Assembly (NCBI GenBank): GCA_020845895.1
Contig: JADLEX010000158.1
Span: forward strand, 1 to 60,608
Source of the DNA: Deltaproteobacteria bacterium
GTDB lineage: Bacteria; Lernaellota; Lernaellaia; JACKCT01
Direction: 5' to 3'
DNA length: 60,608 bases
This document shows positions 24,449-51,402 of this stretch, one piece after another. The position numbers and the translations under genes are program-made. Below the pieces are notes generated by a model. It did not search any database and was not told the DNA's origin. It saw only the letters and a program-made list of their open reading frames with translations. How positions within the stretch are numbered: position 1 is the first letter of the stretch; each line of letters begins with the position of its first letter.

Positions 24449-24551
24449 GGCTGTGCGAATCGGCGAATTTCCCATCTCCTTGTCGAACATCCGCTTTCGG
24501 GTGTAACCCTGCGTTTCCTCTCCGCGCGTGGGTACGCGGGGGCGCGAACGC

Positions 24552-27500
24552 ATGGGCAATCGCATCGTCGGAGGCAAATACGAGCTGCTTCGCCGCTTGG
24601 GGCGAGGCGGCATGGCCGAGGTGTATCTCGGGCGCATGGCCGGCGCGGCGCGGTTCCAGAAGACCTTCGCCGTCAAGCTCGTCCTTCCGCACCTGATCGA
24701 GAGCCCCAACGACGTGGCGCTCTTCGTGGACGAGGCGAAGCTCGTCGCCCAGCTCACGCACTCGAACATCGTGCAGGTCTTCGACTTCGGCGTGGACGGC
24801 GAGGATATTTTTCTCGTCATGGAGTACGTCGAGGGCTGCACGCTTCGGGCGCTTCTCACCGCCTGCGCGAATCGCGGGCGGACCGCGCCGCTCGACATCG
24901 CCCTGTTCGTCATGTCGCAAGTCTGCAGGGGACTCGACTACGCGCACCGCAAGCGCGACGACGAGGGACGTCCTCTCGCGCTCATCCATCGCGATCTCGA
25001 CCCCAACAACGTGCTGATTTCGGACGAGGGCGAGGTCAAGATCAGCGACTTCGGGATCGCGCGCTCGGCCACGCAGGCGCACCACAGCGACTCGGGCGCG
25101 TTGCGCGGCAAGGTGTTCTACATGCCGCCCGAGGCGATCGCGGCCCGGCCGGTGGACCAGCGGGCCGACCAGTTCATCCTGGGCGCGGTGTTCTACGAGG
25201 TGCTCACCGGCAAGAAGGCGTTCGCCACGGAACCGGTTCCCTGGGGCGTGTTCGAGAAGATCCGCAAAGGCGAGTACGAGCCCGTCCGCACGGCCAATCC
25301 GTCGGTGCCCGCCGAGGTCGAAACGGTGGTGGACCGCCTGCTCGCCGTGCAGCCCGAACGCAGGTTCGCCAATTCCGGCGACATGCTCGCGCAGATCGAG
25401 ATGCTGCGCCGCATTCATGGCGGCGGGGCCGACGCCACAGTGCTCGGAGATTTCCTCCGCCGCGTGGTGCGCGAGGGGGGGACCTGGATGGGCACGCCCG
25501 CGCCGGGACTCGCGCCTCCCGCCGGGGCGGGCCGATCGACGACCTGGTCGACGGATTTCGACACCTCGCCGGGGATCGCGTCCCGCGAATCGATGCCGGC
25601 CGCCGGGATTCCAGTCCCGGATTTCGCCGGACTCGAAACGGCGCCCCCGGGTATTTCCACACAGCCCTTCGGCAATTCCTCACGGCCCTCGGGTCTTTCC
25701 ACTCATTCCCGCGCGCCCATCGTCGCCCCCGGTGCGGCGGGTCCCGACGACGCGGTCCGCCTCGATCCGATGGATCTCGCGCGGCTTTCCGATCTTTTGG
25801 TGGAGTCGCCCATCGAGGAAACCGGCACCGCCGACGGCGAGGTGCGCGACGGCGTCATCGCCGCGATCTGTTATCGGATCGCCGAGTCCGGCGCCGCATC
25901 GGAGGCGCGATCCGACGACCTTCACGCGCACATGCGGCGCGTGATCGAGCGCGTCCTGCACGGACGCGGCGCGGCGACGACGCCATGGTCCGAATCGCGT
26001 CTCATCGCCGTGTGGGGTCTCGCCTCGAACATCGAGGACGCCGCCGCGCGGGCCGTCGCGTGTTCGCTCGAACTCGTCGAGGTGGCGCGGCATCTGTCGG
26101 GCATCTCGCACTCGCCCGGCGCGCTGGAGCTGCGTGTGGGCATCGGCGCCGGTCAGGCGGTGTGCGAATGGCGTTCGGACCGGCACGTCGTCGTCGAGGG
26201 CGAACCGATCGAGGCCACCCGCGCGATGTGCGCGCTGGCCGACGCGAACGAGATCGTCGTCTCCGCGCGCGTTCACGAAGCCTGCCGCGACCGCTTTCGC
26301 TGGGCGACGCCCGCGCAGGATCGCGCCGGCGATCTGTTCGTGCCCGCCGGGCATGCCCCCTGGGCGCTGGCGTCCGTCGCCGGAGCAAAGGGGGCGGCGG
26401 CGCCGCCGCTGGTCGGCCGCGATGACGAACTCGCATTGCTGCGCGCGGCGTGGGACCTCATTCGCGCCCGCACCGACCGCAATCGACGCGGCGGCGCGGT
26501 GCACCACATTCTGGAAGTCGGCGGCGAGGCGGGTTCCGGCAAGACCCGTCTCGTCGAGGAGTTCATCGCCGCCATCGCCGAGGATCCCCCGCTCGTTCTG
26601 CGTGCCTTCGCGCATGCCCACGATCCGCGGCCCTTCGCGGCGTGGACGACGCTGCTCGCGGGATTTCTCGGGGTGCCGGAGGACGACGACGATGGCTGGA
26701 AAGTCGCCCTGCTCGCCGTCGCGAACGACGTCGCCGACACGCGCTCACGAACGGCGTTCGAGGAATCGGTGCCGATTCTCGCGTCGCTTGCCGCCGCGAC
26801 GCGTCTCTACACCACGTTGACCTGGCCGGCCGAGGAAGCCGACGAGACCGAGTGGTTCATCGCGCTGCGTAACTTCGTGCGTGCGCTGGCGTGGTCGCAT
26901 CGGCCTCTGCTGCTCGTCTTCGAGGACATGCAGTGGCTCGACGCCGCGTCGCGCCGGGCGCTCGAGTTCGTGCTGCAAAACTGCGACGTGAGGCAGGGAA
27001 TTTTCGTCGTCGGACTCGAACGGGGCGGCGACGACGCGCCCGGTCACGGACCGAATCCGCACGCGCACTACGCCACGAGGGAGCGCATCCGGCTCACCCC
27101 GCTCGGCGAAGAGTCGGCGCGCGACCTGCTTCGCGCCCTGCTCCCCGGCCTCGAGGATCGCACCGAGTCGCCCGTCGACGCGCGGCGCGGCGATCCCGGC
27201 ACGGTGCGCGAGGAAACGCGCGGTTTCCTGTCGCGTTACGACCTGACCTGGCGGCGTGTGCGCGCGGGGATTCTGGAGAGGTCCGGCGGCAATCCGTATC
27301 TGTTGCTCGAACTCATCCGCGCGATCCGCGAAAACGGCGATCTCGTCTGCGAAAACGGGCGATGGCGATTCACGAGTCCGCAGGTGGGGCTGGCCCTGCC
27401 CGCGACGGCCATCGATCTGGCCCTCGCCCGCGTCGATCGCCTCGGCCCCGAGCCCAAGCGCGCGCTGCACATCGCCGCCGTGCTCGGCGCGTCCTTCGTC

Positions 27501-29291
27501 GCCGACGCGTTCGCGCACGTCGCGACGAAAATCGGGCACGTGGGCGACCCCCGGGCGATCCTCGGCGATCTGGAAGCCCGCGGCCTGCTCGTGCGCGAGG
27601 ATCCCGGGCGATACGACCGATACCGCTTTCGCGAGATCATCGTGCGCGAAACCGTTTATCAGGCGGTGCTCGCCCCGGTACGCGCGCGCGTGCATCGCAT
27701 CGCCGCCGAGTACCTGGAAACGCGCCCCGAGCGCCGCGATATCTTCGTCGAGAGCGTCGTCGCGTCGCACTGGGCGGCGTGCGGCCGGTTGGAACGCGCG
27801 ATCACGTGGGGTTGCGAGGCGCTGCGAACGCTGCGTCGGCACGGACAGCACGAGGAGTGCGTGGAGTGGACCGACCGCGTCCTCGCGTGGATCGGCGAAT
27901 GCCCCCCGTCGGGCGGGATCGAGGCGCGCCAGCTCGAAATGCTCGAGGCGCGCGAGGCGAGCCTCGGCCTGCTCGGCCGCACCGCGCAGCGCGAGCAGAC
28001 GCTCGAGCAGATCCTCGCCCTGCTCGGCGATCGGCCCGCGCACCGCGTGAAGCGCGGCATCGCGTTCGAGCGCCTCGCCGTGGTGCGCCGGATTCAGGGG
28101 CGGATCCCCGAGGCGATCGCGTACCTGCACGACGCCCTCGAAATTCTGCGCGAATGCGGCCAGCGGCGTTACGAGGGCAAGGCGGAGAACGGGCTCGCCG
28201 TGGTGTACGGAGAGCTGGGCCGGCCGGCGGAAGAGATGGAACACTACCGCGCGGCGCAGGCGCTCTTCGAGGAGATCGACGAAAAGCGCGAGCTGGGGCG
28301 CGTTCACAACAACATCGGGATGCACCACCTCGACTCGGGCCGCGTCCCCGAGGCGATCGCGAGCATCGAGACCGCGATCCGGCTGTTCCGGCAGATCCAT
28401 TACCGCCGCGAGGAGGCGTACGCGGTCAAAAACCTCGGTCTCGCCCATCGTCAGTTCGGGGATATCGACCGGGCCGAGGGGTACTTCCGCCGCGCGCTGG
28501 CGCTCGCGCGCGAGGTGGGCGACCTGCACGGCGAGGGCCGTGCGCACAACAACATCGGGATGGTCGAATACGACCGCGGTCGTCTCGACGAGGCGCGCGA
28601 CGCGTTCCTCCCGGCCATGGAGATTCACGACGAGGTCGAGGACGCCGTCGGCGGCGCGATCGTGCAGCTCAACCTCGGCCTGTGCGACCAGTACGCGAAT
28701 CGGCTCGAATCGGCGCTCGCGCACATCGACGCCGCCGTCGCGCGATTCGGCGGCGCGGACGCGAAACGGTATTCGGCCGTCGCCCAATCCTATCGCGGGC
28801 AGCAGTTGTTCGAGCTGGGCAGGATCGACGAGGCGCGCTCGGAACTCCTCGCGGCCGCGGACATTCTCGCCGAGGCGGGCGAGCGCGAGCACCTTGCGTT
28901 CACGCACTGCCGCCTCGCGGCGATGCGGATCGCGGCGGAAGAGTTGGACCGCGCGGGGGAGTCCCTCGCCCAGGTCGAGCACCTGCTCGCCTCGGGGGAT
29001 CTCCCGCTCGTTCGGCTGGTGTATCATGCCGTGATCGGGCGCGCGGCGCTGGCGGCGGGAGGCCCGGACGACCCCGAGACCGTCGCCGCCGCCGTCCGCG
29101 AATACCGCCGCGTCCTCGACCTGCTGGAAAAACAAAGGATCGGACCGCGAAACGAATACTCGGCGGAATTCACGAGGCTGCGCATCGATCTCGCGTCGCG
29201 CGGGGTGGGCGAATCCCGATTGCCGCTGCCGGCGCATTGGGACACCGCGCCGCGCATGAGCGCGCCGACGATGCTGGAAACCTGGAATTGA
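24552..29291 (+). CDS. Giant PknK-like Ser/Thr kinase with cyclase-like, ATPase and TPR domains
   Basis: A 1579-residue regulator. The kinase domain (about 8-290) has LGRGGMAEVY, the invariant Lys in FAVKLV, catalytic loop HRDLDPNN (Asp where most kinases have Lys) and ISDFGIA. A Pro/Ser/Thr linker follows. Residues about 478-592 resemble a class III nucleotidyl cyclase: NIEDAAARAVACSLEL and RVGIGAGQAVCE. It lacks the two metal-binding Asp motifs, so it is probably a non-catalytic sensor. An AAA_16-type NTPase follows with GEAGSGKTRL (about 657) and LLVFEDMQWLD (about 787). The last ~400 residues are TPR repeats (NNIGM, NLGLAHRQFGD). Such proteins integrate signals and phosphorylate regulators. 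The ATG at 24552 sits right before the kinase. A GTG at 24528 is an alternative. The sensor gene follows after 30 bp. Confidence 0.9.
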   Translation: MGNRIVGGKYELLRRLGRGGMAEVYLGRMAGAARFQKTFAVKLVLPHLIESPNDVALFVDEAKLVAQLTHSNIVQVFDFGVDGEDIFLVMEYVEGCTLRALLTACANRGRTAPLDIALFVMSQVCRGLDYAHRKRDDEGRPLALIHRDLDPNNVLISDEGEVKISDFGIARSATQAHHSDSGALRGKVFYMPPEAIAARPVDQRADQFILGAVFYEVLTGKKAFATEPVPWGVFEKIRKGEYEPVRTANPSVPAEVETVVDRLLAVQPERRFANSGDMLAQIEMLRRIHGGGADATVLGDFLRRVVREGGTWMGTPAPGLAPPAGAGRSTTWSTDFDTSPGIASRESMPAAGIPVPDFAGLETAPPGISTQPFGNSSRPSGLSTHSRAPIVAPGAAGPDDAVRLDPMDLARLSDLLVESPIEETGTADGEVRDGVIAAICYRIAESGAASEARSDDLHAHMRRVIERVLHGRGAATTPWSESRLIAVWGLASNIEDAAARAVACSLELVEVARHLSGISHSPGALELRVGIGAGQAVCEWRSDRHVVVEGEPIEATRAMCALADANEIVVSARVHEACRDRFRWATPAQDRAGDLFVPAGHAPWALASVAGAKGAAAPPLVGRDDELALLRAAWDLIRARTDRNRRGGAVHHILEVGGEAGSGKTRLVEEFIAAIAEDPPLVLRAFAHAHDPRPFAAWTTLLAGFLGVPEDDDDGWKVALLAVANDVADTRSRTAFEESVPILASLAAATRLYTTLTWPAEEADETEWFIALRNFVRALAWSHRPLLLVFEDMQWLDAASRRALEFVLQNCDVRQGIFVVGLERGGDDAPGHGPNPHAHYATRERIRLTPLGEESARDLLRALLPGLEDRTESPVDARRGDPGTVREETRGFLSRYDLTWRRVRAGILERSGGNPYLLLELIRAIRENGDLVCENGRWRFTSPQVGLALPATAIDLALARVDRLGPEPKRALHIAAVLGASFVADAFAHVATKIGHVGDPRAILGDLEARGLLVREDPGRYDRYRFREIIVRETVYQAVLAPVRARVHRIAAEYLETRPERRDIFVESVVASHWAACGRLERAITWGCEALRTLRRHGQHEECVEWTDRVLAWIGECPPSGGIEARQLEMLEAREASLGLLGRTAQREQTLEQILALLGDRPAHRVKRGIAFERLAVVRRIQGRIPEAIAYLHDALEILRECGQRRYEGKAENGLAVVYGELGRPAEEMEHYRAAQALFEEIDEKRELGRVHNNIGMHHLDSGRVPEAIASIETAIRLFRQIHYRREEAYAVKNLGLAHRQFGDIDRAEGYFRRALALAREVGDLHGEGRAHNNIGMVEYDRGRLDEARDAFLPAMEIHDEVEDAVGGAIVQLNLGLCDQYANRLESALAHIDAAVARFGGADAKRYSAVAQSYRGQQLFELGRIDEARSELLAAADILAEAGEREHLAFTHCRLAAMRIAAEELDRAGESLAQVEHLLASGDLPLVRLVYHAVIGRAALAAGGPDDPETVAAAVREYRRVLDLLEKQRIGPRNEYSAEFTRLRIDLASRGVGESRLPLPAHWDTAPRMSAPTMLETWN

Positions 29292-34582: not shown

Positions 34583-37500
34583 GTGTTGAGCGCGCGCACG
34601 GACATTCTGCTGGCGATGTGCCCGCCCTACGGGCCGGAGATGCCGCCGCTGTCGCTGGCGTCGCTGGTCGAGTCGGCGCGCGCGAACGGATTTACCGCGA
34701 ATGTGCTCGACTTGAATATCGACGTCTTTCGCGCGGCGGTCGATCCCGGTGAATGGGAGATGGACCACAAGGAACAATGGGTCTGGCCGACGAAATTCCC
34801 GGATCTGTGGAAACGCCACGCCCCCGCGCTCGAGGCCGGCATCGCGACCCTCATCGAGGCCGATGCGCGCGTGTACGGTTTCTCGTGCCACTCCGACAAT
34901 CGCCTGACCACGCAGGACGTGATCCGCGCGCTGCGCCGAGCGCGACCCAACGCGATCGTTATCGTCGGCGGCATGGGCGTGTACTCCGACACGTCGCGAC
35001 GCTCGTTTCAGAGCGGTCTCGTCGACGCGTTCGTGATCGGCCCCGAGGGCGAGGCGACGCTGGTGGAGTTCCTGCGCGCGGTGCGCGACGGACGGCCCTT
35101 CGACGAGGTTCCCGGCCTCGTGCTCTGGCGCGACGGCGCGCTGCGCGAAACGGCGGCGCGCGATGTGGCGAACCTCGCCGAGTTCCCGTTCCCTTCGTTC
35201 GCCGACTTCGACCTCAACGCCTACACCACGCCGAATCTGCCCGTCGTCACCAGCCGCGGCTGCAAAAGCCACTGCCTGTTTTGCAACGACCGCGTGCTGA
35301 TGGGCAAGTTCCGCGGGCGCTCGGCCGAGTCGGTGTTCGACGAAATCCGCCACCACGTCGAGGTGCTCGGTATCCGCGATTTTTCGTTCAACGACCTGCA
35401 GCTCAACTACAACGTCACCGAGATCGACCGGCTGTGCACGCTCGTCAACGGGCACTTCGGCCCGGCGTCGGGCGCGATCCGGTGGAACGCAAACATCATC
35501 GTCTCCGACGCGTTCCTCCCCTCGATCCTGCAAAACATGCACGCGGCGGGCTGCCACACGCTCACACTCGGTCTCGAAAGCGGATCGGCGCGGGTCGTCA
35601 AACGCATGGCCAAGGGCTTCAAGCTCGACACCGCGCGTCGCCTGATGCGCGACATCAAGGACGCGGGCATCACGCTGTGGATCAACCTCGTCGTGGGTTT
35701 CCCCGGCGAGACGGACGAAACCGTGCGCGAATCCATCGCCTTCGTCCAGGAGCACGTCGGCGTCATCGACGAGGTGTGCGTGTGCAACACGTGCAACCTG
35801 CTCGAATACTCGACGCTCCATGACCATCGCGACAAGTTCGGCATCGCGCCCGCGAGCGACCCGCAGTGGGACGAGGTTTCGTGGCGCACGCTCGACGGCG
35901 CCAACACCTTCGAGCAGCGCATGGTATGGCTCGGCTGGATGGTCGACATGCTGCGCGCGAACAACGTGCCGATCCGCCAGACGAACTACCACTTCGAGGG
36001 CGAGGACCGCCTGCACGCCGCGCGCCGCATCGACGTGGTGCTCGCCATCGCCCCGCCCGCCGGTACGGACTCGCCGCCCTACGAACTCGTCAGTTCCTCG
36101 GCGTACCTGCGCGAGCGCGCGGGCATCGAGGCGACGTGCGTCGATCTGAACATCGAGGCGTTTCGCGCCGCGAGCGACGATCACCGCGCCTGGTGGCAGC
36201 CCGGCGTGCGCGAGACCTGGGCCGACCCCGAGCGGCTCGGCGAGATCATGCCGTCGCTCGGTCTGAACGCCGAGACGATGGCCGACCGACTGCTCGCGCC
36301 GGGAACGGGGATCGTCGCGCTCTACGTGCACCGCGCGAACGCGATGGTCACGCGCGTGGTGATCGAAGCCCTCAAACGCAAGTCACCCGGCGTGCGCGTC
36401 GCGCTCTTCGGACCGACCACGTCGATCGCCGCCGAGCGCAATCTGTTCCCCGACGCACTGTGCGAATTCATGGTGGCGGGCGAGGTCGAGGCGTCGCTCG
36501 CCGATCTCGTTTCGCGCCTCGTTCACAACGCGGATCTCGGCACGCTGCGCGGCGTGCGTTTCGCGAAACCGGGCGGCGAGCGCCACTTCATGCCGCGCGA
36601 GCCCATCAAGCCGCTCGCCGACCTGCCCTCGCCCGATTACCGCGAACTGCGGCCCGAGATGTACGGACCGGTGCTGGGCGTTCGCATGAGCCGCGGGTGC
36701 GTGCATCGGTGCGCATTTTGCGCGGAGCAGCCCGCCGAAGGGCCGGCGCGGCGGCGCAACCCGGCGCGGGTATTCGCCGAGATCGAAGGCGCGTTCCGCG
36801 ACCACGGCGCGCGCGAATTCGAATTCACCGACCTCATCCTCAACAACGGCGATCCCAAGCCGCTCTTCGAGCTGTGCGACCTGCTGGCGGCGGCGAAACT
36901 GCCGATCGCGCTCGGCGCGTCGTTTGCGCCCGACGAACGCAGCACGCGCGAACTGTTCGACAAGATGAAGGCGGCGGGATTTCGGCGCGTGCGGTTCGGC
37001 GTCGAGAATTTCGCCGACAACGTGCTGCGTCTGATGAACAAGACCTACACGGCGCAGGTGGCGCTGAAGAATCTGCGCGACGCGCACGAAGCCGGCCTCG
37101 AGACGCACGTGAGCGTCATGATCGGTTTCCCCGGCGAAACCTACGAGGATTTCTACACGAACCTCGCATGGATGCGGAAAATCGAGCCTTGGTGCGATTA
37201 CGTGGACACGGTGACGGCGTGCGAGGTGCTGCCGCACGCGAAGATCGAACGCGCGCCCGCGAAGTATCAGGTGCTGTTGCCGCCCAAGGATCACGCGCGA
37301 TCCTGGTCGTACATGGGCTACAACAACGAGAACTACCGCGAGACGCGCCTGAAAGAGATGGCGGTCTGGATCGGCGGGCTCGATTTCAAATTCAACTACG
37401 ACTGGTTCGTATCGCCCGGCAGCAAGTTCCGTCGCGACGAGGGGCGCATCCGCGAGCGTATCGCCAAGCGCGTGGGCCGCGACATCGAGTGCGTGATCGT

Positions 37501-40500
37501 GAACATGCCGCCGTGGGGCTTCACGAATCCTCCCGTGGGCCCGGCGGTGCTGGCGACGTATCTGGACAGCCGCGGGCACCCCACGAAGGTGCTCGACTAC
37601 AACGCGCGCTGGTACAACGAAGCGCCCGAGAACCAGAAGCTGCTGTGGCACGTCGAGAACAAGAATTTCTGGTCGAACGACGAGACGTGGGAGGTCCTCG
37701 CGTGGGGCCTCGCCGACAAGATCGAAAAGGCAGCGGATGAAATCCTGGCCGCGGATCCGAAGCTCATCGGCTTTTCCGTCGTCGATCCCAAGGAGCGCGT
37801 CACCGTCGCCGTGATCGACGCCGTGCGCCGAAAAAACCCCGACGTGAAGATCCTGCTCGGCGGGCCGGCGATCTTCACGCCCGATTACCGCACCATCTTT
37901 TTCGAGCGTGCGGGCCGGTGGATCGACGGCTACGTGGTCGGCGAGGGCGAGGAGACGCTACTCGACTGCGTGCGCGCGGTGAACGCGGGCGAGCCCCTGC
38001 GCGGCATCCCCGGCGTCATCACGCTCGACACCGAGGGGAAGCAGGAACTCGTGCCGCGCGGACCGATCCGCGATCTCGACTCGGTGCCCTTTCCCAGCTA
38101 CGCGCATTTCAACATGCGCGAGTATCACGGCAATTCGCTGGTGCTCGAATGGTCGCGCGGCTGCATCGCAAGCTGCCTGTACTGCAAGGGCAAGGATCTC
38201 GCGGGCAAGTATCGCAGCCGATCGGCGAAGCACATCTTCGACGAATTGAAGCACCACGTCGAAGTGCTCGGGTTCGCCAGCTTCACCGTGTCGGACAACA
38301 TCCTCAACGGCCGTCCCAAGGTGCTTCACGAACTGTGCGACTTGATCATCGAGTCGAAGCTGCCCGTGCGCTGGAACGCCGAGGCAGCCCCGATGAAAAA
38401 CCTGACGCCGGAACTGTTACGCAAGCTGCGCGCGGCGGGATGCTTCGAATTGCAGCTCGGCCTCGAGGTCGGCTCCGACCGCGTGCTCAAATACATGAAC
38501 AAAGAAAAACTCTTCACCGTCGAGTCGGCGGGACAAGTGTTCCGCGACGCCAAGGCGGCCGGGATCAAGACGTGCATGTTCTGCATCGTCGGCTTCCCGG
38601 GCGAAACCGAAGAAGACTTCCAGATGACGCTCGAGATGATCGAGCGCAACGCGCCCTACATCGATCAGATCAAGTCGATCAACGCGTGCGTCATCATCAC
38701 CGGCACCGACCTGCACGTGCAGGCGGGGCGCATGGGCATGACGCTGCCGCGCGACGACTACCACTACCTGTGGACCGACGGGAACGGTCTTTCGATCGAG
38801 GAGCGCAACGACCGCATCCGACGCGTGCTCGCGCTCGTGCAGCGGCTGGGCAAGGAGTGTTTGGAAACGAACTTGACCGAGGGCAAGCAGCTCGATCTCG
38901 CGAAGGCGGTGCGCGCGGGGGGCCTCGGGCCCGAGCAACGCTTCGCGCGGCTGCTCGAACTCGCGAACAACCTGGGCAGCTTCGACCCCGGCGATTACGG
39001 CGATGGATCGTCGATCAAGGTGCCGACGCTCGCCGAGGACTTCGGCCGATCGGACGCGTACCAACCCGGCGCGGCGCGGCCCACGGCCGCCGAGATCATG
39101 GACCGCACCTACGACCGCGCAAGCTTCGCCGCCGCCGAGCGCGACGCGGCGATCGCGGCCTCGGGTTCGTCGGCGTGCCTGCCGGGCGCGGGCGCGGGTA
39201 TCGCGTCGTCGCGCGCCGTTGCCGAAAAGCCGGGCGACAACGGCCGCGCGAACGGCAACGGACATGCCCACGAAAACGGCAATGGACACTCCCACGAGGA
39301 ACCCCGCGCCGTCACGCGCGAATTCGTCGAGGAGCGGTTGCATTTGTCGGGCGTGATGTCGGGCGAGCGGGTCTATTGCGGCCCGCGCATCCTGGAAATC
39401 GACCTGACGAATCGCTGCAACCTCAACTGCGTGGGCTGCTGGAATCACGGCTTCGAGATGGGCGACGCGCGCTGGACCGGCGAGATGTTCAAACGCACGC
39501 TGCCGACCGCGCGCGTGCTCGAGACCATCGACGAGGCGGCGGCGACCGGCGCGAAGATGGTGCAGCTCTCGGGCGCGGGCGATCCGCTGCTGCACCCGGA
39601 TTTTCTGAAGGTGCTCGAACGCGTGAAGTCGCGCGGTCTGAAATGCACCGTCATCACCAACGGCACGATGCTGACCGAGAAGGTCATGCGCCGCATGGTG
39701 GAACTGGGCCTCGACAACCTGACCGTGAGCGTGTGGGCGGGCAACGAGGAGACGTATACGGCCACGCACCCGGGCACCAAACCGAAGACGATCGGCAAGA
39801 TCCGCGACGCGCTGCGTGAACTGCACGCGATCAAGAAGCGCCTGGGCAAGACGCGCCCGCACGTGAAAATCTACAACGTCATCAACCACGCGAACGCGGG
39901 CGGCATCGACGACATGATCACGTTCGCGCTGCAAAGCCTCGTCGATCACGTCGAGTTCACGCCCATCGACATCGTGCCCGGCCGATCCGATCATCTGGGC
40001 CTCACCGCGCAGGACCGCGACCGGATCAAGACGCAGCTCGACGGCCTGACGCGCCGCGACGACTACCTCGAGCTCGATCCCACGCAGGCGCCGCGCTCGG
40101 CGGGCGCGGGCGGCGAGGGCAAAGAGTTCGCGCGGTTCGTGAAGTACCAGATTTTGCCGCACGATTTCCGCTACGAGCTCGACGACATCTCGCGCTTCGA
40201 CGTGCTGTGCGAACGCAAGGCGTGGCGGCTCGACATCACCGAGGACAACGTCGAGCACAACGCGCTGTTTTTCAAATACCCCGAGCACGAGTGCCGCGCG
40301 TGCCCCGAGCGGCCGCGCTGCTCCATCGACAAGGACCGCCACCACATCAAAGTCGAGTTCCTGTCGGTGCTGGGTTTCGGCGCGTTCTACCGGCGCATCA
40401 CGAGCGCCGAGGCGCAGTCGGGACATTACGACGCCGGAGCGGTGCGCGACCTGCCGTGCAACATCGGCTGGACCTACGCGCGCGTCGGCACCGACGGCAA

Positions 40501-40774
40501 GGTCGCCCCGTGTTGCAAGGGCACGAAGATGCCGATGGGAAGCATTCAGGGCGAAGACCTGCGCGCGATCTGGACCAAGCCCGCGTACGTCGAGTTTCGC
40601 CGCAACGCGATTTCGAAGCCCAAGGACGATCCCTACTTCGCGCCCATCGCCTGCATGAAGGCGTGCGACAATTTGGGCATGATCCACAAAACCGCTCGCG
40701 AACTCGCGGAGCTCGCCCCCGACGAGCGCGAAGCGGTGGCGAAGCCGGCGGAACGCGGGTTTCGGGAAATGTAA
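34583..40774 (+). CDS. Giant four-module radical SAM protein (three B12-binding-like/rSAM units plus rSAM-SPASM-like)
   Basis: A 2063-residue protein in one uninterrupted frame. Module 1: a B12-binding-like Rossmann domain (about 7-190) and radical SAM with CKSHCLFC (Cys227, 231, 234). Module 2: about 483-680 and CVHRCAFC (706, 710, 713). Module 3: about 968-1160 and CIASCLYC (1194, 1198, 1201). Each core also has a GFPGET strand. A Gly/Asn/His linker (about 1552-1572) precedes module 4, an rSAM with CNLNCVGC (1612, 1616, 1619). Its Cys-rich tail (1876, 1904, 1907, 1913, 1959, 1977-1978, 2024, 2028) suggests SPASM-like auxiliary clusters. Each CxxxCxxC should hold a 4Fe-4S cluster that cleaves SAM. 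The first three resemble cobalamin-type methylases or cyclases. Modules 1 and 3 share GK(F/Y)RxRSA and HHVEVLG, implying internal duplication. The start is GTG after GGGGGAG. The substrate is unknown. Confidence 0.9.
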   Translation: MLSARTDILLAMCPPYGPEMPPLSLASLVESARANGFTANVLDLNIDVFRAAVDPGEWEMDHKEQWVWPTKFPDLWKRHAPALEAGIATLIEADARVYGFSCHSDNRLTTQDVIRALRRARPNAIVIVGGMGVYSDTSRRSFQSGLVDAFVIGPEGEATLVEFLRAVRDGRPFDEVPGLVLWRDGALRETAARDVANLAEFPFPSFADFDLNAYTTPNLPVVTSRGCKSHCLFCNDRVLMGKFRGRSAESVFDEIRHHVEVLGIRDFSFNDLQLNYNVTEIDRLCTLVNGHFGPASGAIRWNANIIVSDAFLPSILQNMHAAGCHTLTLGLESGSARVVKRMAKGFKLDTARRLMRDIKDAGITLWINLVVGFPGETDETVRESIAFVQEHVGVIDEVCVCNTCNLLEYSTLHDHRDKFGIAPASDPQWDEVSWRTLDGANTFEQRMVWLGWMVDMLRANNVPIRQTNYHFEGEDRLHAARRIDVVLAIAPPAGTDSPPYELVSSSAYLRERAGIEATCVDLNIEAFRAASDDHRAWWQPGVRETWADPERLGEIMPSLGLNAETMADRLLAPGTGIVALYVHRANAMVTRVVIEALKRKSPGVRVALFGPTTSIAAERNLFPDALCEFMVAGEVEASLADLVSRLVHNADLGTLRGVRFAKPGGERHFMPREPIKPLADLPSPDYRELRPEMYGPVLGVRMSRGCVHRCAFCAEQPAEGPARRRNPARVFAEIEGAFRDHGAREFEFTDLILNNGDPKPLFELCDLLAAAKLPIALGASFAPDERSTRELFDKMKAAGFRRVRFGVENFADNVLRLMNKTYTAQVALKNLRDAHEAGLETHVSVMIGFPGETYEDFYTNLAWMRKIEPWCDYVDTVTACEVLPHAKIERAPAKYQVLLPPKDHARSWSYMGYNNENYRETRLKEMAVWIGGLDFKFNYDWFVSPGSKFRRDEGRIRERIAKRVGRDIECVIVNMPPWGFTNPPVGPAVLATYLDSRGHPTKVLDYNARWYNEAPENQKLLWHVENKNFWSNDETWEVLAWGLADKIEKAADEILAADPKLIGFSVVDPKERVTVAVIDAVRRKNPDVKILLGGPAIFTPDYRTIFFERAGRWIDGYVVGEGEETLLDCVRAVNAGEPLRGIPGVITLDTEGKQELVPRGPIRDLDSVPFPSYAHFNMREYHGNSLVLEWSRGCIASCLYCKGKDLAGKYRSRSAKHIFDELKHHVEVLGFASFTVSDNILNGRPKVLHELCDLIIESKLPVRWNAEAAPMKNLTPELLRKLRAAGCFELQLGLEVGSDRVLKYMNKEKLFTVESAGQVFRDAKAAGIKTCMFCIVGFPGETEEDFQMTLEMIERNAPYIDQIKSINACVIITGTDLHVQAGRMGMTLPRDDYHYLWTDGNGLSIEERNDRIRRVLALVQRLGKECLETNLTEGKQLDLAKAVRAGGLGPEQRFARLLELANNLGSFDPGDYGDGSSIKVPTLAEDFGRSDAYQPGAARPTAAEIMDRTYDRASFAAAERDAAIAASGSSACLPGAGAGIASSRAVAEKPGDNGRANGNGHAHENGNGHSHEEPRAVTREFVEERLHLSGVMSGERVYCGPRILEIDLTNRCNLNCVGCWNHGFEMGDARWTGEMFKRTLPTARVLETIDEAAATGAKMVQLSGAGDPLLHPDFLKVLERVKSRGLKCTVITNGTMLTEKVMRRMVELGLDNLTVSVWAGNEETYTATHPGTKPKTIGKIRDALRELHAIKKRLGKTRPHVKIYNVINHANAGGIDDMITFALQSLVDHVEFTPIDIVPGRSDHLGLTAQDRDRIKTQLDGLTRRDDYLELDPTQAPRSAGAGGEGKEFARFVKYQILPHDFRYELDDISRFDVLCERKAWRLDITEDNVEHNALFFKYPEHECRACPERPRCSIDKDRHHIKVEFLSVLGFGAFYRRITSAEAQSGHYDAGAVRDLPCNIGWTYARVGTDGKVAPCCKGTKMPMGSIQGEDLRAIWTKPAYVEFRRNAISKPKDDPYFAPIACMKACDNLGMIHKTARELAELAPDEREAVAKPAERGFREM

Positions 40775-40873: not shown

Positions 40874-42022
40874 ATGATGCGTTTCGTCAGACAAAAACCG
40901 TTCGCCGCGCTCGTGGCTTTTTGCGTCGTCGCGGCCGGGGCGTGGTTCGTTTACCGTTCGCTTTTCGCCGCGAGTCCGGGCGCGGGCGGCCCGCGCGGGT
41001 TCGGCCCCGCGCCGGTCGTGGTCGCCGAGGCCAAAACCGGGGAGTGGGTGGACGAGCTCGAGGCCGTGGGAACCGCGCGCTCGCGCGAGTCGGTCGCCAT
41101 CACCGCCAAGGTCACCGAGACCGTGCGTCGCCTGCACTTCGACGACGGCGAGCAGGTGAAGGCCGGGGCGATTCTCGCCGAGCTCACGCGCGCCGAGGAA
41201 TCGGCGCAGCTTTCGGAGGCGCTCGCCGGGCTCGAGGATGCGACGAAGGAGTATCAGCGCATTTCCAAGCTCGACTCGGCGGATCTTGTCGCCAAGACCG
41301 AGGTGCAGACGCAGACCGCGCGCTACAAAGCGGCCGACGCGCGCGTGCGCGCCATCGAGGCGCGCCTCTCGGACCGGCTGATCCGCGCGCCGTTCGCCGG
41401 GGTCGTGGGTCTGCGCAACGTGAGCCCGGGGCAACTCGTCGCGCCGGGTACGGTGGTGGCCACACTCGACGACATCAGCCGCATCAAGCTCGACTTCCAG
41501 GTGCCCGAGGTCTACATCGCCGTCGCGCGGCCGGGCCTCGACGTCATCGCGCGCTCCGAGGCGTATCGCGACCGGGAGTTTCACGGCGTCATCACGGGCA
41601 TGGACACGCGCGTCGACCCCGCGACGCGAGCCTTCGCGGTGCGCGCCGAGATCCCCAACGACGACGGCGCGCTGCGCCCGGGCATGCTGCTCGCGGTCAA
41701 GATCATTCGCGAGCGCCGGCGCGCGCTCATCGTGCCCGAAGGCGCGATCGTGCAGACGCAGGACCGGCACATGGTCTTCGTCGCGACGCCCGAAAACAAG
41801 GCCGAGCAGCGGGTCGTCAAGATCGGCGCGCGCAAACCCGGCTTCGTGGAAATCACCGAGGGCCTCGTCGAGGGCGAGCAGGCGGTCGTCGAGGGCGCGA
41901 TGAAATCGCGGCCCGGCGGCGACGTGGCGATTGTCGGCCGCGTGGACGCCCTGACCGGGGCGGCGCTGCCCATGCCGGACGCGGTCACGCCGTCCGCGCC
42001 GGACGCGGCGAAGGCGAAATAA
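40874..42022 (+). CDS. RND efflux periplasmic adaptor subunit (HlyD/MFP family)
   Basis: A 382-residue membrane-fusion protein linking an inner-membrane RND pump to an outer-membrane channel. There is an N-terminal membrane anchor (about 8-32), then a barrel-sandwich half (VTETVRRLHFDDGEQVKAGAIL), an alpha-helical hairpin (about 110-165) and the second lipoyl half (DRLIRAPFAGVVGLRNVSPG). A beta-barrel domain (KLDFQVPEVYI, ITGMDTRVDPATRAFAVRAE) and a membrane-proximal domain complete it. The length is typical. The pump gene begins 3 bp after the stop, so the two are one operon. No outer-membrane channel gene follows directly, so a channel from elsewhere must be used. Confidence 0.93.
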   Translation: MMRFVRQKPFAALVAFCVVAAGAWFVYRSLFAASPGAGGPRGFGPAPVVVAEAKTGEWVDELEAVGTARSRESVAITAKVTETVRRLHFDDGEQVKAGAILAELTRAEESAQLSEALAGLEDATKEYQRISKLDSADLVAKTEVQTQTARYKAADARVRAIEARLSDRLIRAPFAGVVGLRNVSPGQLVAPGTVVATLDDISRIKLDFQVPEVYIAVARPGLDVIARSEAYRDREFHGVITGMDTRVDPATRAFAVRAEIPNDDGALRPGMLLAVKIIRERRRALIVPEGAIVQTQDRHMVFVATPENKAEQRVVKIGARKPGFVEITEGLVEGEQAVVEGAMKSRPGGDVAIVGRVDALTGAALPMPDAVTPSAPDAAKAK

Positions 42023-42025
42023 TCC

Positions 42026-45000
42026 ATGTTTCTTTCCGACGTGTCCGTCCGCCGTCCGGTCCTCGCGATCGTCGTCAATCTGCTGCTCGTGATCTTCGGG
42101 GTGCTGTCGTACCTGACGCTGCCGCTGCGCGAACTGCCCGACATCGATCCGCCCGTCGTGTCGATCTCGACCATCTACACCGGCGCGTCGGCCGATATCG
42201 TCGAGGCCCGCATCACGCAGCCCGTCGAGGATCAGGTCAGCGGCATCGAGGGCATCCGCACGATCGAGTCGGTGAGCCGCGACGGCGAGTCTCAGGTCTC
42301 GATCGAGTTCAACATCGACCGCGACATCGACGCCGCGGCCAACGATGTGCGTGACCGCGTGGGTCGCATCGTGGACAACCTGCCCGAGGAGGCGAACGCC
42401 CCCGAGATCTTCAAGGTCGACGCGAACAACGACGTGATGATGTGGCTGAACTTCCAGAGTTCCACGATGGACAACCTGGAGCTCACGGACTACGCCGAGC
42501 GCTATCTCGTCGATCGCTTCTCGGTGGTGGACGGCGTGGCCCGCGTCATGGTCGGCGGCGCGCGGCGATATTCGATGCGCGTGTGGCTGCACGCCGACGC
42601 GCTCGCGGCGCGCGGCCTGACCGTGAGTGACGTCGAAGGCGCGCTGCTGCGCGAAAACGTGGAGCTGCCCGCCGGGCGCATCGAGTCGGTCGACCGCGAG
42701 TTCACGGTGCGCGTCGCGCGCTCGTATCGCGCGCCCGACGACTTCCGCGGCCTTGCCCTCAAGCGCGGCGAAGGCGGCTACATCGTGCGGCTCGGCGAGG
42801 TGGCCGACGTCGAATTCACGGCCGAGGACGAGCGCAGCGTGCTGCGCGGCAACGGTGAGTCGATGGTCGGCATCGGCATCATCCAGCAGTCCACGGCGAA
42901 CGCCATTGCGGTTGCCGACGGCGTGCGCGAAGTGGCGATACAGGTCGGGACGCAGCTTCCCGAGGGCACGATCCTCGCGCCGAGCTACGATACGTCGGTC
43001 TTTATCCGCGCGGCGATCCGCGAGGTGTACGTGTCGTTTTTCATCGCGGTGGTGCTGGTCATCGCGGTGATCTATCTGTTCCTCGGCAACCTGCGCGCCA
43101 CGTTGATCCCGGCGGTGGCGGTACCGGTCTCGCTGACGGCGGCGCTGATCGTGCTGTCCGTGCTCGGCTACTCGATCAACCTGTTCACGCTGCTCGCGCT
43201 GATCCTCGCGATCGGCATGGTCGTCGACGACGCCATCGTCGTGCTCGAAAACATTCACCGGCGCATGGAACTGGGCGAGCCCGCGATGCTCGCGGCGTTT
43301 CGCGGCACGCGGCAGGTGGGCTTCGCCGTCGTCGCGACGACCGCCGTGCTTTTCGCGGTCTTCATTCCCATCGCGTTTCTCACGGGCAACATCGGGCGTC
43401 TGTTCGTGGAGTTCGCCTTCGCCATGTCGGCCGCCATCGGCTTTTCCGGGCTCGTCGCGCTCACCATCACGCCGGTCATGGCGTCGCGGCTCCTGAAGCC
43501 GAACACACAGGGCAACTGGCTCACGCGGCGCATCGACCGCGACTTCGAGCGGCTCCAGCGCGCCTACCGCCGGCTGCTGGAGGGCGCGCTGCGCCGCCGC
43601 GGCCTCGTGCTGCTCGCTGGCGCGTCCACACTCGGTCTCATCGCGTGGTTCATGACGGTGATTCCCAGCGAGCTCGCACCGACCGAGGATCGCGGCGCGT
43701 TCATCGTGGTGGCCAAGGCGCCCGAGGGCGCGAGCTTCGACTACTCCATGCGCATGATGACGAAGGTGGAAAACATCCTTCTGCCGCTGCTGGAAAGCGG
43801 CGAGGTGACGCGCGTGCTCACCCGCGTTCCCGGCGGATTCGGCAGCACCGCCGTCGTCAATTCCGGCTTCGGCGTCGTGGTGATGAGCCTGTGGGAAGAC
43901 CGCGCGCGCACCACGCAGGAGGTGATGGCCGAGATCACGCCGAAGCTCGGCGCGCTCACCGAGGGCCTCGCCTTTCCCGCGATGCGTCAGGGTCTCGTGC
44001 GTCGCGGCGGCTTCCAGCCCGTGCAGTTTGTCGTCGGCGGCAGCACGTATGACGAGATCGCGCGCTATCGCGACATTCTGCTCGACGCCGCGCGGCAAAA
44101 CCCCGGCCTCTCGGGCGTCGATGCCGACTACAAGGAAACCAAGCCGCAACTGCTGGTCGATATCGATCGCGACCGCGCGGCGGATCTGGGCGTATCGCTC
44201 GGCGACGTGGGGCGCACGCTCGAAACGCTGCTCGGCACGCGACGCGTAACGACGATGATCGAGCGCGGCGAGGAGTACAATGTCATCCTCGCGGCGCGCG
44301 ACGAGGACCGCGCCTCGCCCGCCGACATCTTCAACAACTACGTGCGCTCTCTCACCACGGGCAAGCTGATCCCGCTCTCCAACCTCGTGCGCGTGCGCGA
44401 ACTGGCCGGCGCGGGCGAGCTCAACCGCTTCAACCGCTTCCGCGCCGTCACGATCTCGGCGAACCTGAATCCCGGCTACACGCTGGGCGAGGCGCTCGCG
44501 TTTTTCGAGGGCGTCGCGCGCGACAAACTCCCCACCACGGCGGCGATCGACTACAAGGGCGAATCGCGCGAGTTCAAGGAGTCGAGCCGCTCGCTGTATT
44601 TCGTCTTCGCGCTCGCGCTCGTCGTCGTCTTCCTCGTGCTCGCGGCCCAGTTCGAGAGCTTCGTGCATCCCTTCGTCATCATGCTGACCGTGCCGCTGGC
44701 CGTCGCGGGGGCGCTGGGCGGCCTGTGGATCGCGGGGAGCACGCTCAACATCTACAGCCAGATCGGCATCGTCATGCTGATCGGCCTCGCGGCGAAAAAC
44801 GGCATCCTCATCGTCGAGTTCGCCAACCAGCTTCGCGACGAGGGGGCCGAGTTCACCGAGGCGCTGCTTCGCGCGTCGGCGCTGCGTCTGCGACCGATTC
44901 TCATGACGGCGCTTTCGACGGCCGTGGGCGCGGTGCCGCTCGTGATCGCGCAAGGTGCGGGCGCGGGCAGCCGCAAGACCATCGGCGTCGTCGTGTTTTT

Positions 45001-45142
45001 CGGCATCATGTTCGCGAGCGCGCTGACGCTCGTCGTCATCCCGGTGCTCTACGATCTGCTCGCGCGCAACACCGGCTCGCCCGGAGAAGCCGCCGCCCGC
45101 CTCGCGAAACTCCACGAGGAAACCCCCGACAACGTGGGGTGA
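42026..45142 (+). CDS. RND efflux pump inner-membrane transporter (AcrB/HAE1 family)
   Basis: A 1038-residue proton-driven exporter with the full twelve-helix RND layout: N-terminal RRPVLAIVVNLLLVIFGVLSY, two large periplasmic loops and helices 2-6 and 8-12. The proton-relay Asp pair is in helix 4 (GMVVDDAIVVLENIHRR, about 400), and the family signature QIGIVMLIGLAAKNGILIVEF lies near 920. It should export hydrophobic or amphiphilic compounds from the inner membrane or periplasm through the adaptor encoded just upstream. Substrate cannot be read from sequence. Location directly after the giant radical-SAM gene leaves open that it exports that enzyme's product, but promoter independence is possible because 99 bp separate them. 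Confidence 0.95.
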   Translation: MFLSDVSVRRPVLAIVVNLLLVIFGVLSYLTLPLRELPDIDPPVVSISTIYTGASADIVEARITQPVEDQVSGIEGIRTIESVSRDGESQVSIEFNIDRDIDAAANDVRDRVGRIVDNLPEEANAPEIFKVDANNDVMMWLNFQSSTMDNLELTDYAERYLVDRFSVVDGVARVMVGGARRYSMRVWLHADALAARGLTVSDVEGALLRENVELPAGRIESVDREFTVRVARSYRAPDDFRGLALKRGEGGYIVRLGEVADVEFTAEDERSVLRGNGESMVGIGIIQQSTANAIAVADGVREVAIQVGTQLPEGTILAPSYDTSVFIRAAIREVYVSFFIAVVLVIAVIYLFLGNLRATLIPAVAVPVSLTAALIVLSVLGYSINLFTLLALILAIGMVVDDAIVVLENIHRRMELGEPAMLAAFRGTRQVGFAVVATTAVLFAVFIPIAFLTGNIGRLFVEFAFAMSAAIGFSGLVALTITPVMASRLLKPNTQGNWLTRRIDRDFERLQRAYRRLLEGALRRRGLVLLAGASTLGLIAWFMTVIPSELAPTEDRGAFIVVAKAPEGASFDYSMRMMTKVENILLPLLESGEVTRVLTRVPGGFGSTAVVNSGFGVVVMSLWEDRARTTQEVMAEITPKLGALTEGLAFPAMRQGLVRRGGFQPVQFVVGGSTYDEIARYRDILLDAARQNPGLSGVDADYKETKPQLLVDIDRDRAADLGVSLGDVGRTLETLLGTRRVTTMIERGEEYNVILAARDEDRASPADIFNNYVRSLTTGKLIPLSNLVRVRELAGAGELNRFNRFRAVTISANLNPGYTLGEALAFFEGVARDKLPTTAAIDYKGESREFKESSRSLYFVFALALVVVFLVLAAQFESFVHPFVIMLTVPLAVAGALGGLWIAGSTLNIYSQIGIVMLIGLAAKNGILIVEFANQLRDEGAEFTEALLRASALRLRPILMTALSTAVGAVPLVIAQGAGAGSRKTIGVVVFFGIMFASALTLVVIPVLYDLLARNTGSPGEAAARLAKLHEETPDNVG

Positions 45143-45263: not shown

Positions 45264-46343
45264 ATGAAGAAAGAACTCGCGCGCACCGGTGGCCGTTCGG
45301 CGAAGAAAGAAATGTCGTCCAGGATCCTTCACGATCTGCGTTCGATGATCGAGTCGGCTCGGCAGCGCGCCGCGGCGGCGGTCAACGCCGAAATGGTTCT
45401 GCTCTACTGGTCGATGGGCGAACGAATCAAACGCGAACTCATCGGCGAAGGACGCGCCGCATACGGCGAGCAGATTGTCTCGACGCTGTCGAAGCAATTG
45501 TCAGCGGAATATGGACGCGGATTTTCGCGTCGGAACCTGTTCCACATGGTCAAATTCGCGGAGACGTTTCCGGACCGGCAAATAGTGCACGCACTGAGTG
45601 CACAATTGTCCTGGACCCACTTCCGGCAGATCATCTATCTCGACGATCCTCTGAAACGGGATTTCTACGCGGAGCTGTGCCGAGTCGAACGTTGGAGTAC
45701 CCGCACGCTGGAGGAAAAAATCAACCGCCTGCTCTTCGAGCGCACGGCCGTCGCGAAGAAGCCGGACGATTTGATCCGCCGCGAGTTGGCGGAGCTGCGG
45801 GAGGCGGATCGCATGACTCCCGACATGGTGTTTCGCGACCCGTACGTCCTCGACTTTCTCGACCTGAAGGAGACATACAGCGAGAAAGAGCTGGAAGCGG
45901 CGATCCTGCGGGAACTCGAAGCGTTCATCCTGGAGCTTGGCATCGGTTTTTCGTTCGTCGCGCGGCAGAAGCGCATCACCGTCGACCGGGAGGACTATTA
46001 CATCGACCTGCTGTTCTTCCATCGGAAAATGCGTCGGCTCGTCGCCATCGATCTCAAGCTGGACCGATTCAAGGCGGCCTACAAAGGCCAGATGGAACTC
46101 TACCTGCGGTGGTTGGAAAAGTACGAGACGCAGGACGGCGAGGACACTCCCCTCGGGCTGATCCTATGCGCTGGCAAGTCGAGCGAACACGTGGAGTTAC
46201 TGCAGCTGGAAAAATCCGGAATTCGCGTGGCCGAGTACCTCACCGATCTGCCGCCGCGCGATCTGCTGGAGAAGAAGCTGCATGAGGCCATCCATCTCGC
46301 GCGCGAGCGGATGTCGAGGCCGTCGCCAGTCGAGGACCGATAG
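45264..46343 (+). CDS. YhcG/DUF1016-type PDDEXK nuclease
   Basis: A 359-residue protein. The N-terminal DUF1016_N helical domain (about 10-170) shows LLYWSMGERI, YGEQIVSTLSKQLS, FSRRNLFHM and LSWTHFRQI. The C-terminal PD-(D/E)xK nuclease fold (about 200-350) has DYYIDLLFFHRKMRRLVAIDLKL, in which the separated Asp and the DLK form the active site, then YKGQMELYLRWLEKYE. This family occurs in restriction, defence and mobile contexts. It appears alone, between an RND pump and a penicillin acylase gene, and has more AT-rich codons than its neighbours, as expected for an acquired gene. No partner methylase or specificity gene is next to it. Confidence 0.88.
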   Translation: MKKELARTGGRSAKKEMSSRILHDLRSMIESARQRAAAAVNAEMVLLYWSMGERIKRELIGEGRAAYGEQIVSTLSKQLSAEYGRGFSRRNLFHMVKFAETFPDRQIVHALSAQLSWTHFRQIIYLDDPLKRDFYAELCRVERWSTRTLEEKINRLLFERTAVAKKPDDLIRRELAELREADRMTPDMVFRDPYVLDFLDLKETYSEKELEAAILRELEAFILELGIGFSFVARQKRITVDREDYYIDLLFFHRKMRRLVAIDLKLDRFKAAYKGQMELYLRWLEKYETQDGEDTPLGLILCAGKSSEHVELLQLEKSGIRVAEYLTDLPPRDLLEKKLHEAIHLARERMSRPSPVEDR

Positions 46344-49028: not shown

Positions 49029-50081
49029 TCAGTCCAGAAACCGCTCCATCGCCTCGGGCGTGAAGACGCGGAACGCGCACGTGTCGCACGGACCGTCCTT
49101 GTGCGGCAGTCCGTACAGGCGCGCGCGGGCGTTCTGCGCCGCGGGGGCGTTCCACAAGGTCGCGCCGTCCTGCCGGTCGAGGTAACCCAGCTCGATGCGA
49201 TGCGTGCCGCCCGCGAACATCGCCGAGCAGCAGCCGAACGCCGCGCCGTCGTGGCGGATCATCATCAACTCCAGCGGCTGCTCGCACTCGTGCACGCCAG
49301 AGGTGGGCGGCAGACGCAACGATACCCCCGTCGCGACGGCGCGTTCGCGCGCACGGTGGAACGCGGCGATGAGTTCGCCCTCGGGCAGCGCGAGCGCGGA
49401 GTTGCCCGCATGGGCGCGCGTATAGAGCTTCTCGTGCATCACGTACACGTCGGCCACGTCGTGCGCGGCCGCGAGATCGACGATGGCCGCGAGTTGGTGC
49501 GCGTTGCGCCGCGTGAGCGTCACGTTGAATGCCGCGAGCGAGTCGGGCGCGGCGGCGCGCAGCAGATCGACGCGCGCGAGCAGATCCGCCAGCGCCACGC
49601 CGCGCGTCTCGCGCAGATGCTCGTCGGTCGCCGCGTCGAGCGAAAACAGCACGCGGCCGACGCGGAGCTCACCCAACGTCGCCACGCGGCGCTCGTCCAG
49701 AAACGACGAATTCGTGATGATCTCGGTGAAGCATCCCTCGTCCGCCGCGAGACGCAAAATCGCGTCGATGTGGCGGCCCAGCAGCGGCTCGCCGTAGCCG
49801 CCGATCAACACGCGCTCGGCGGCGCGCAGCAGCGGGCGCAGATTCGGGAACGCGGCGGGGTCGAAATCGCCCGCGCGATTCGTGCGCGGATTGTAGTAAT
49901 TGCGCGCGCAGCTCGCGCACTCCAGGTTGCAGCGGTTCGTCGCCTCGATCTGCACCTGCAGCGGCAGACTCGCGAGACGCACGCGCCGTTCCTTTCGCTC
50001 GCGGTCGCGCAGGTCGCAATTTTTGCGCTTCACCGCGCCCTGGGATTCGGGCGCGTCGGTAATGGCTTCGGCGGTGTTCAT
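49029..50081 (-). CDS. Radical SAM/SPASM-type protein coupled to an ABC ATPase
   Basis: A 350-residue radical SAM enzyme with IEATNRCNLECASC (Cys of the SAM cluster at about 51, 55, 58), GGYGEPLLGRH and an SLDAATDEHLRETRG strand. This is the MoaA/SPASM type that modifies peptides or cofactors. The C-terminal part has further cysteines (HECEQ, FGCCSAMF, GPCDTCAF near the end), expected to bind auxiliary clusters. The start codon overlaps the stop of the upstream ABC ATPase gene by 4 bp (ATGA), so translation is coupled. No precursor-peptide gene was seen nearby. Substrate might be a glycan- or lipid-linked group, given the Wzt-like partner. Confidence 0.85.
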   Translation of the reverse strand: MNTAEAITDAPESQGAVKRKNCDLRDRERKERRVRLASLPLQVQIEATNRCNLECASCARNYYNPRTNRAGDFDPAAFPNLRPLLRAAERVLIGGYGEPLLGRHIDAILRLAADEGCFTEIITNSSFLDERRVATLGELRVGRVLFSLDAATDEHLRETRGVALADLLARVDLLRAAAPDSLAAFNVTLTRRNAHQLAAIVDLAAAHDVADVYVMHEKLYTRAHAGNSALALPEGELIAAFHRARERAVATGVSLRLPPTSGVHECEQPLELMMIRHDGAAFGCCSAMFAGGTHRIELGYLDRQDGATLWNAPAAQNARARLYGLPHKDGPCDTCAFRVFTPEAMERFLD

Positions 50082-51313: not shown

Positions 51314-51402
51314 CACGCCCGTTTCGATCAGGTTCGCGCCAGCATAGCGGACGGGCGCGCGCGCCCGCTAGGGGGTTGCGAAAGGAGGCGTTCCGATCGC
51401 TC

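Follow-up and report, generated by a model that had tools for sequence, protein, structure and literature searches.

The window analysed here, a stretch of 60,608 nucleotides (contig JADLEX010000158.1 of assembly GCA_020845895.1), carries at positions 34583–40774 of the forward strand a gene for a 2063-residue protein, read from a GTG start to its stop, in which four radical S-adenosylmethionine (SAM) modules are joined on one chain. With a probability of roughly 0.6, this protein belongs, together with other large polypeptides, to a conserved radical-SAM system of many modules that tailors a glycan at the cell surface or on a lipid, probably in the absence of oxygen. It supplies just a portion of this system; a five-module protein and SPASM fusion proteins encoded elsewhere in the same genome complete the set. 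The FEN-1099 group is a candidate phylum for which the names Candidatus Lernaellota or Podoxiota have been proposed (PMC13248872).

The reading frame is unbroken, shows a coding-like third-position G+C content over its full length and contains CxxxCxxC motifs at residues 227, 706, 1194 and 1612; the initial annotation, made from the letters alone, had given the same frame and motif positions. Pfam recognises four Radical_SAM stretches (E 5e-80), two B12-binding stretches and one SPASM domain, and the combination of motif and Radical_SAM domain, which places each of the four modules in the radical SAM superfamily, is kept in all intact orthologues. Module 1 (M1; 34583–36025, residues 1–481, CxxxCxxC at 227–234), module 2 (M2; 36026–37480, residues 482–966, CxxxCxxC at 706–713) and module 3 (M3, also called W; 37481–38917, residues 967–1445, CxxxCxxC at 1194–1201) each consist of a B12-type N-domain followed by the radical SAM domain. 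Three Rossmann-like N-domains had been proposed, and all three were recovered, two by Pfam and that of M2 only through its homology to the N-domains of M1 and M3 in profile-profile alignment (probability at least 99.8%). M1–M3 are thus likely cobalamin-type (class B) modules as judged from their sequence, with the actual use of cobalamin being predicted. M3 further contains the peptide WHVENKN (37646–37666, residues 1022–1028), which is identical in 23 of 23 aligned M3 modules of bacterial and archaeal origin. The expected linker was likewise found between M3 and M4 (38918–39316, about residues 1446–1578); it is of low complexity, rich in Gly, Asn and His at its end and, at 16–40% identity, the least conserved part of the protein.

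Module 4 (M4, also called S2a; 39317–40771, residues 1579–2063, CxxxCxxC at 1612–1619) is a SPASM-type radical SAM module. Its cysteine-rich tail, already noticed as SPASM-like, matches PF13186 (40457–40612, residues 1959–2010) with 39.8 bits, above the cut-off of 21.5, and the cysteines C1959, C1977, C1978, C2024 and C2028 are invariant among the orthologues of the class. An insert with four further cysteines (40208–40321; C1876, C1904, C1907 and C1913) occurs in the S2a modules of the class, of Wallbacteria and of Omnitrophota and is absent from the related module types S2b and S2c; it is a possible, candidate extra Fe-S site.

The gene is present in all seven genomes of the class. Orthologues with the same four modules in the same order and in one frame were found in four other genomes of the class (G001, G003, G004 and G006; 42–61% identity). 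The orthologue of G005 is a natural version without M1, comprising M2, M3 and M4, and the copy in G002, a metagenome-assembled genome (MAG) of 77% completeness, is collinear and frameshifted. M3 is the best-conserved module within the class (51–76% identity) and M2 the least conserved of the catalytic modules; compared with G001, identities amount to 76% for M3, 67% for M4, 58% for M1 and 47% for M2. In a tree of the modules, each of the four groups with the module at the same position in the other genomes, and M1 forms a clade of its own. The resemblance of M1 and M3 (33% identity), which had been ascribed to internal duplication, is real; nevertheless, it must be older than the class because each module clusters with its same-position counterparts, which rules out a recent duplication and makes the module duplications ancient. 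When IMG/VR contigs were searched with the alignment of the full-length proteins, no relative was detected, and on this basis a viral origin or carriage was rejected.

Beyond the class, a scan of named genomes with the class alignment yielded 20 loci which, by the titles of their MAG records, belong to Omnitrophota, Calescamantes, Caldisericota, Wallbacteria, Woesearchaeota, Nanoarchaeota and a Deltaproteobacteria MAG. At these loci M3 sits in arrays of radical-SAM modules, for which the types W (M3), S1 (a short SPASM module), S2a (M4), S2b, S2c and B (other B12-type modules) were distinguished. M3 followed by M4, either fused or adjacent, was found in Wallbacteria (L059, L110, L111 and L114), in the Deltaproteobacteria MAG RIFOXYA12 (L051) and in archaea (Woesearchaeota L044, L048 and L112; Nanoarchaeota MAG L050). 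In some archaeal MAGs W and S2a are separate, translationally adjacent genes, while they are fused in the class of the window. The Woesearchaeota locus L044 encodes B+B+W+S2a on 1960 residues, the same four-module order as in the window, and the Wallbacteria locus L059 encodes S1+B+W+S2a on 2191 residues. Locus L112, on a 1.16 Mb contig of a genome that belongs to the same phylum as the Woesearchaeota MAG, carries B+B+B, W, an S2a-like gene and two S2b-like genes. In Omnitrophota and Calescamantes the orthologues of M3 and M4 lie inside arrays of fused modules: the Omnitrophota locus L104 combines B+S2a+S2b+S2c (1917 residues) with a subsequent S1+B+W (1311 residues), and at L053 a protein S2a+S2b+S2c (1428 residues) is followed by B+B+W (1539 residues). 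An Omnitrophota array also contains a radical-SAM-like protein without CxxxCxxC (L060:12318-13709, + strand), possibly a degenerate or structural module.

Modules of the same type from different phyla cluster together in the trees, as seen for W, S1, S2b (support 97) and S2c (support 99); these are quick trees with support only from the Shimodaira–Hasegawa-like approximate likelihood ratio test, in which support is weak at some nodes and the S2a modules do not come out as a single clade. The recurring set comprises one W, one S1, two or three S2 modules (S2a, S2b and S2c) and one to five further B modules, which occur as single genes in some lineages and in different fusions in others.

The modules also occur together across genomes. 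Among 285 Omnitrophota genomes, W was detected in 9, S1 in 9 and both in 8 (hypergeometric p 8e-14), and S2b in 48, including 9 of the 9 genomes with W (p 6e-8); these values are not corrected for the relatedness of the genomes, and the thresholds (E <1e-180 for W, <1e-100 for S1 and <1e-60 for S2b) were set after the gaps in the scores had been seen. Elsewhere W is patchy, with 3 of 237 genomes in the sample of the Woesearchaeota phylum, 5 of 40 in the Wallbacteria phylum and 3 of 7 in the Calescamantes phylum. Separately, the S2b proteins of Omnitrophota are often long fused frames of 903–1918 residues, mostly without W, and represent a broader fused family.

In the genome of the window, W and S2a are supplied by the four-module protein and S1, S2b and S2c by another contig (C17), which brings W together with S1 and S2 modules in one genome. 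This second locus encodes, on its + strand, a 2361-residue five-module protein S1+B+B+B+B (L021:2480-9565), conserved in the class with frames of 2361–2606 residues, as well as a fusion of a GT1 glycosyltransferase with S2b (L020:6874-9780) and a fusion of a carbamoyltransferase with S2c (L020:10039-13140). The GT1-S2b fusion occurs in three genomes of the class and in one Wallbacterium (L059:8705-11230), and the carbamoyltransferase-S2c fusion in the class; further loci with SPASM fusions of these kinds are L034, L036 and L115. The surrounding genes form a cluster of the lipopolysaccharide-core type with MsbA-like, PMT_2, Kdo-transferase, epimerase and NodU-type carbamoyltransferase genes. 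The same genome is very rich in radical-SAM genes, with 66 places that match the window protein at E <0.001, and contains a 994-residue frame with two CxxxCxxC motifs, a tandem SPASM-like protein (L040:7932-10916, contig C57).

Because the modules fuse, split and adjoin across phyla and M3 co-occurs with S1 and S2b, a shared pathway is the simplest reading. Accordingly, the earlier proposal that three class-B-like modules and one SPASM module act on one chain, likely in one pathway, gained support from cross-phylum fusion and fission, from gene order and from the co-occurrence of W, S1 and S2b. It is very unlikely that the chain merely joins independent enzymes by operon compaction, each module serving a different pathway. 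The fusions are fluid in a way that would suit this view, with M1 lost in G005 and S2 fused or separate by lineage; yet, whatever the pattern of fusion, the same types of module remain associated in bacteria as well as in archaea, and W and S1 occur nearly one-to-one in Omnitrophota.

Regarding the substrate, the context of the arrays supports a glycan or a lipid-linked sugar. Among 103 neighbours of the array loci other than radical-SAM genes, 22 encode GT1 and 13 GT2 glycosyltransferases. From the background density in the same genomes about 1.8 GT1 genes would be expected beside M3 arrays, whereas 22 were observed, an enrichment of about 12-fold in a count that treats related loci as independent. 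Further neighbours are Wzt-like ATPases, Wzm/Wzt genes, asparagine synthases (AsnB), PMT_2, O-antigen ligase and PF00953, with a gene for the PF00953 polyprenyl-phosphate sugar transferase adjoining L053. Within the class, Wza/Wzc and GT2 genes lie close to the four-module gene of G004, and the GT2 and B12-radical-SAM genes adjoining the array there are also found next to the array in G005 and G006. In the window itself, a gene combining GT2 with a methyltransferase and a PMT_2-like gene lie upstream, and a Wzt gene with a Wzt_C domain is found 9 kb downstream. Arrays in Omnitrophota, Calescamantes and G004 neighbour genes of Wzm/Wzt and Wza/Wzc O-antigen or capsule clusters.

The structure models point weakly in the same direction. 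The model of M3 (pLDDT 91.7) finds its best solved folds in TsrM, AprD4, OxsB, MgmA and CysS, and that of M4 (pLDDT 88.3) in BlsE and DesII, closely followed by SuiB and MoaA; by sequence, M4 matches BlsE, DesII, PqqE and BtrN. Like TsrM, OxsB, CysS, TokK and MgmA, M1–M3 combine an N-terminal Rossmann-type domain with radical SAM (TMq of about 0.7 for M3 and TsrM); they differ in that identity to these enzymes is about 14–19%, several such units stand on one chain, and WHVENKN is specific to M3-type modules. AprD4, a radical-SAM diol dehydratase acting on paromamine, has the same fold as M3 (TMq 0.66–0.67), a sugar-type substrate and a weakly matching model, NF033070, but is single-module and only 17% identical. 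Sequence comparison places BlsE, DesII and BtrN, which act on sugars and related rings, nearest to M4 among solved structures, and fold comparison does the same for BlsE and DesII; structural identity is 13–16%, and M4 differs by its four-cysteine insert and its position behind three B12-type modules. Taken together, the fold and sequence neighbours weakly favour sugar chemistry.

None of the curated cut-offs in NCBIfam is reached by any single module, and assignment to an NCBIfam equivalog was rejected. NF033070, the AprD4-type diol dehydratase model, scores at most 52 bits per module against a cut-off of 500. For M4 the best model is TIGR04317 (W_rSAM_matur) with 120 bits, the cut-off being 380. 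TIGR04295 (B12_rSAM_oligo), which like other B12-type radical-SAM families has a similar domain layout, matches all three B12-type modules weakly (28–36 bits, cut-off 400).

Several points weigh against a glycan as substrate. Glycosyltransferase genes cluster anyway, which adds to the counting of related loci as independent, and the phylum labels of the array loci derive from record titles. Moreover, the array lacks a conserved glycan neighbour in four of the seven class genomes, including that of the window, and for these the glycan link comes from the second locus and from other phyla. The sugar enzymes AprD4, BlsE and DesII are distant (12–17% identity), and as TsrM, SuiB and MoaA score about equally well, the fold does not fix the substrate. 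AprD4 is also known to have the fold of the B12-type modules without the cobalamin cofactor.

The initial annotation had suggested a lipid, a tetrapyrrole-like molecule or a peptide as substrate, none of which is favoured by the context. Tailoring of lipids or polyprenols, in which the modules would act by methylation or cross-linking on a membrane lipid, or on the glycan's lipid carrier instead of its sugars, is unlikely. Lipid carriers exist in bacteria and archaea alike, and the PF00953 gene beside L053 would fit such a role, as would matches to HpnJ, ladderane-type and tetraether-synthase models; all of these models, however, remain under their cut-offs, and the prominent families among the neighbours are GT1, GT2, Wzt, O-antigen ligase and AsnB, with none for lipid synthesis.

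The maturation of ribosomally synthesised and post-translationally modified peptides (RiPPs), with tandem B12-type methyltransferases and a SPASM enzyme modifying a ribosomal precursor, appears slightly less probable still. TIGR03975, a RiPP C-methyltransferase model, is the top-scoring NCBIfam model for M1–M3, many SPASM enzymes are peptide maturases, and SuiB is among the fold matches of M4. Nevertheless, the single modules score far under the TIGR03975 cut-off (107–141 versus 281.85 bits), the whole-chain value of 358.7 being a sum over three modules. In addition, no conserved small open reading frame was found beside the orthologues of the class, where the few matches among three sister genomes coincide with shared flanking genes, and it is glycosyltransferases that dominate the neighbours, with S2b even fused to GT1.

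Finally, an assembly collapse or frame artefact, conceivable for a draft of 171 contigs and named in the initial annotation as what would overturn its reading, has practically no chance of being true, since intact orthologues of the same architecture exist in independent genomes of the class and the identities vary by module position, unlike in a collapsed repeat.

For the favoured glycan-tailoring system, the following mechanism can be envisaged. Each module would cleave SAM reductively and perform radical chemistry, the B12-type modules possibly by radical C-methylation or by deoxygenation or dehydration at carbon centres and the SPASM modules by oxidation, deamination or epimerisation at sugar carbons. 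We infer that all modules would act on one lipid-linked or surface glycan, and their fusion may keep an intermediate that is scarce or sensitive to oxygen inside a single particle, comparable to FbiC in the synthesis of F420. More tentatively, the system could be a modular assembly line, present in several bacterial phyla and DPANN archaea, whose two to six polypeptides together carry as many as about a dozen radical-SAM modules and which performs a fixed series of C-methylations, oxidations and deoxygenations on a single lipid-linked glycan. The order of the modules and their fusion would then organise the reactions as multi-domain chains do in polyketide synthases.

FbiC is the nearest known precedent. 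Its CofG and CofH radical-SAM domains stand on one chain in many bacteria and are separate cofG and cofH proteins in archaea, and they serve one pathway with two separate 5'-deoxyadenosyl radicals (PMC11917521). As in the system described here, radical-SAM steps share a chain in some organisms and are divided between proteins in others; FbiC, however, has two modules without B12-type or SPASM domains and serves F420, whereas the present proteins have four to five modules of two classes in a glycan context. The protein of the window is not an FbiC, as its domains are B12-type and SPASM, and FbiC/CofGH is not among the NCBIfam hits listed. In the open-licence literature searched, FbiC was the only relevant tandem or multi-module radical-SAM protein, its two modules being the most per chain; no multi-module B12/SPASM chain, nothing on this system among work on glycan-related radical-SAM enzymes and no description of radical-SAM arrays as part of O-antigen or capsule clusters was found there.

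Among the remaining genes of the window, an RND exporter (HlyD at 40874–42022 and an AcrB-family gene at 42026–45142, by Pfam) lies directly downstream of the four-module gene, as had been noted. It does not stand next to the orthologues (in G001, ArgS lies on one side) and is absent from the conserved neighbours; it was therefore rejected as a functional partner and is uninformative on the product. A DUF1016/YhcG gene of the PDDEXK nuclease family (45264–46343, + strand) is located between the exporter and a penicillin-amidase-family gene. About 8 kb downstream, at 49029–51316 on the reverse strand, a SPASM radical-SAM gene overlaps the gene for the Wzt-type ABC ATPase with its Wzt_C domain; the SPASM protein falls on a branch distant from the array types. 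At 24528–29291 (+ strand) a 1587-residue serine/threonine kinase with AAA_16 and TPR repeats is encoded.

Each of the modules belongs to a known superfamily, and the complete system may well be new. A cross-domain set of six to twelve modules, repeatedly fused and split, would offer a genetic logic, based on the modules that are inherited and joined together, for reading the order of radical reactions. The W and S2a modules, encoded by separate genes in certain archaeal MAGs and joined on one chain in the class of the window, provide a testable target in this respect. Moreover, the system points to surface sugars of undescribed chemistry in uncultured phyla which dominate many anoxic habitats.

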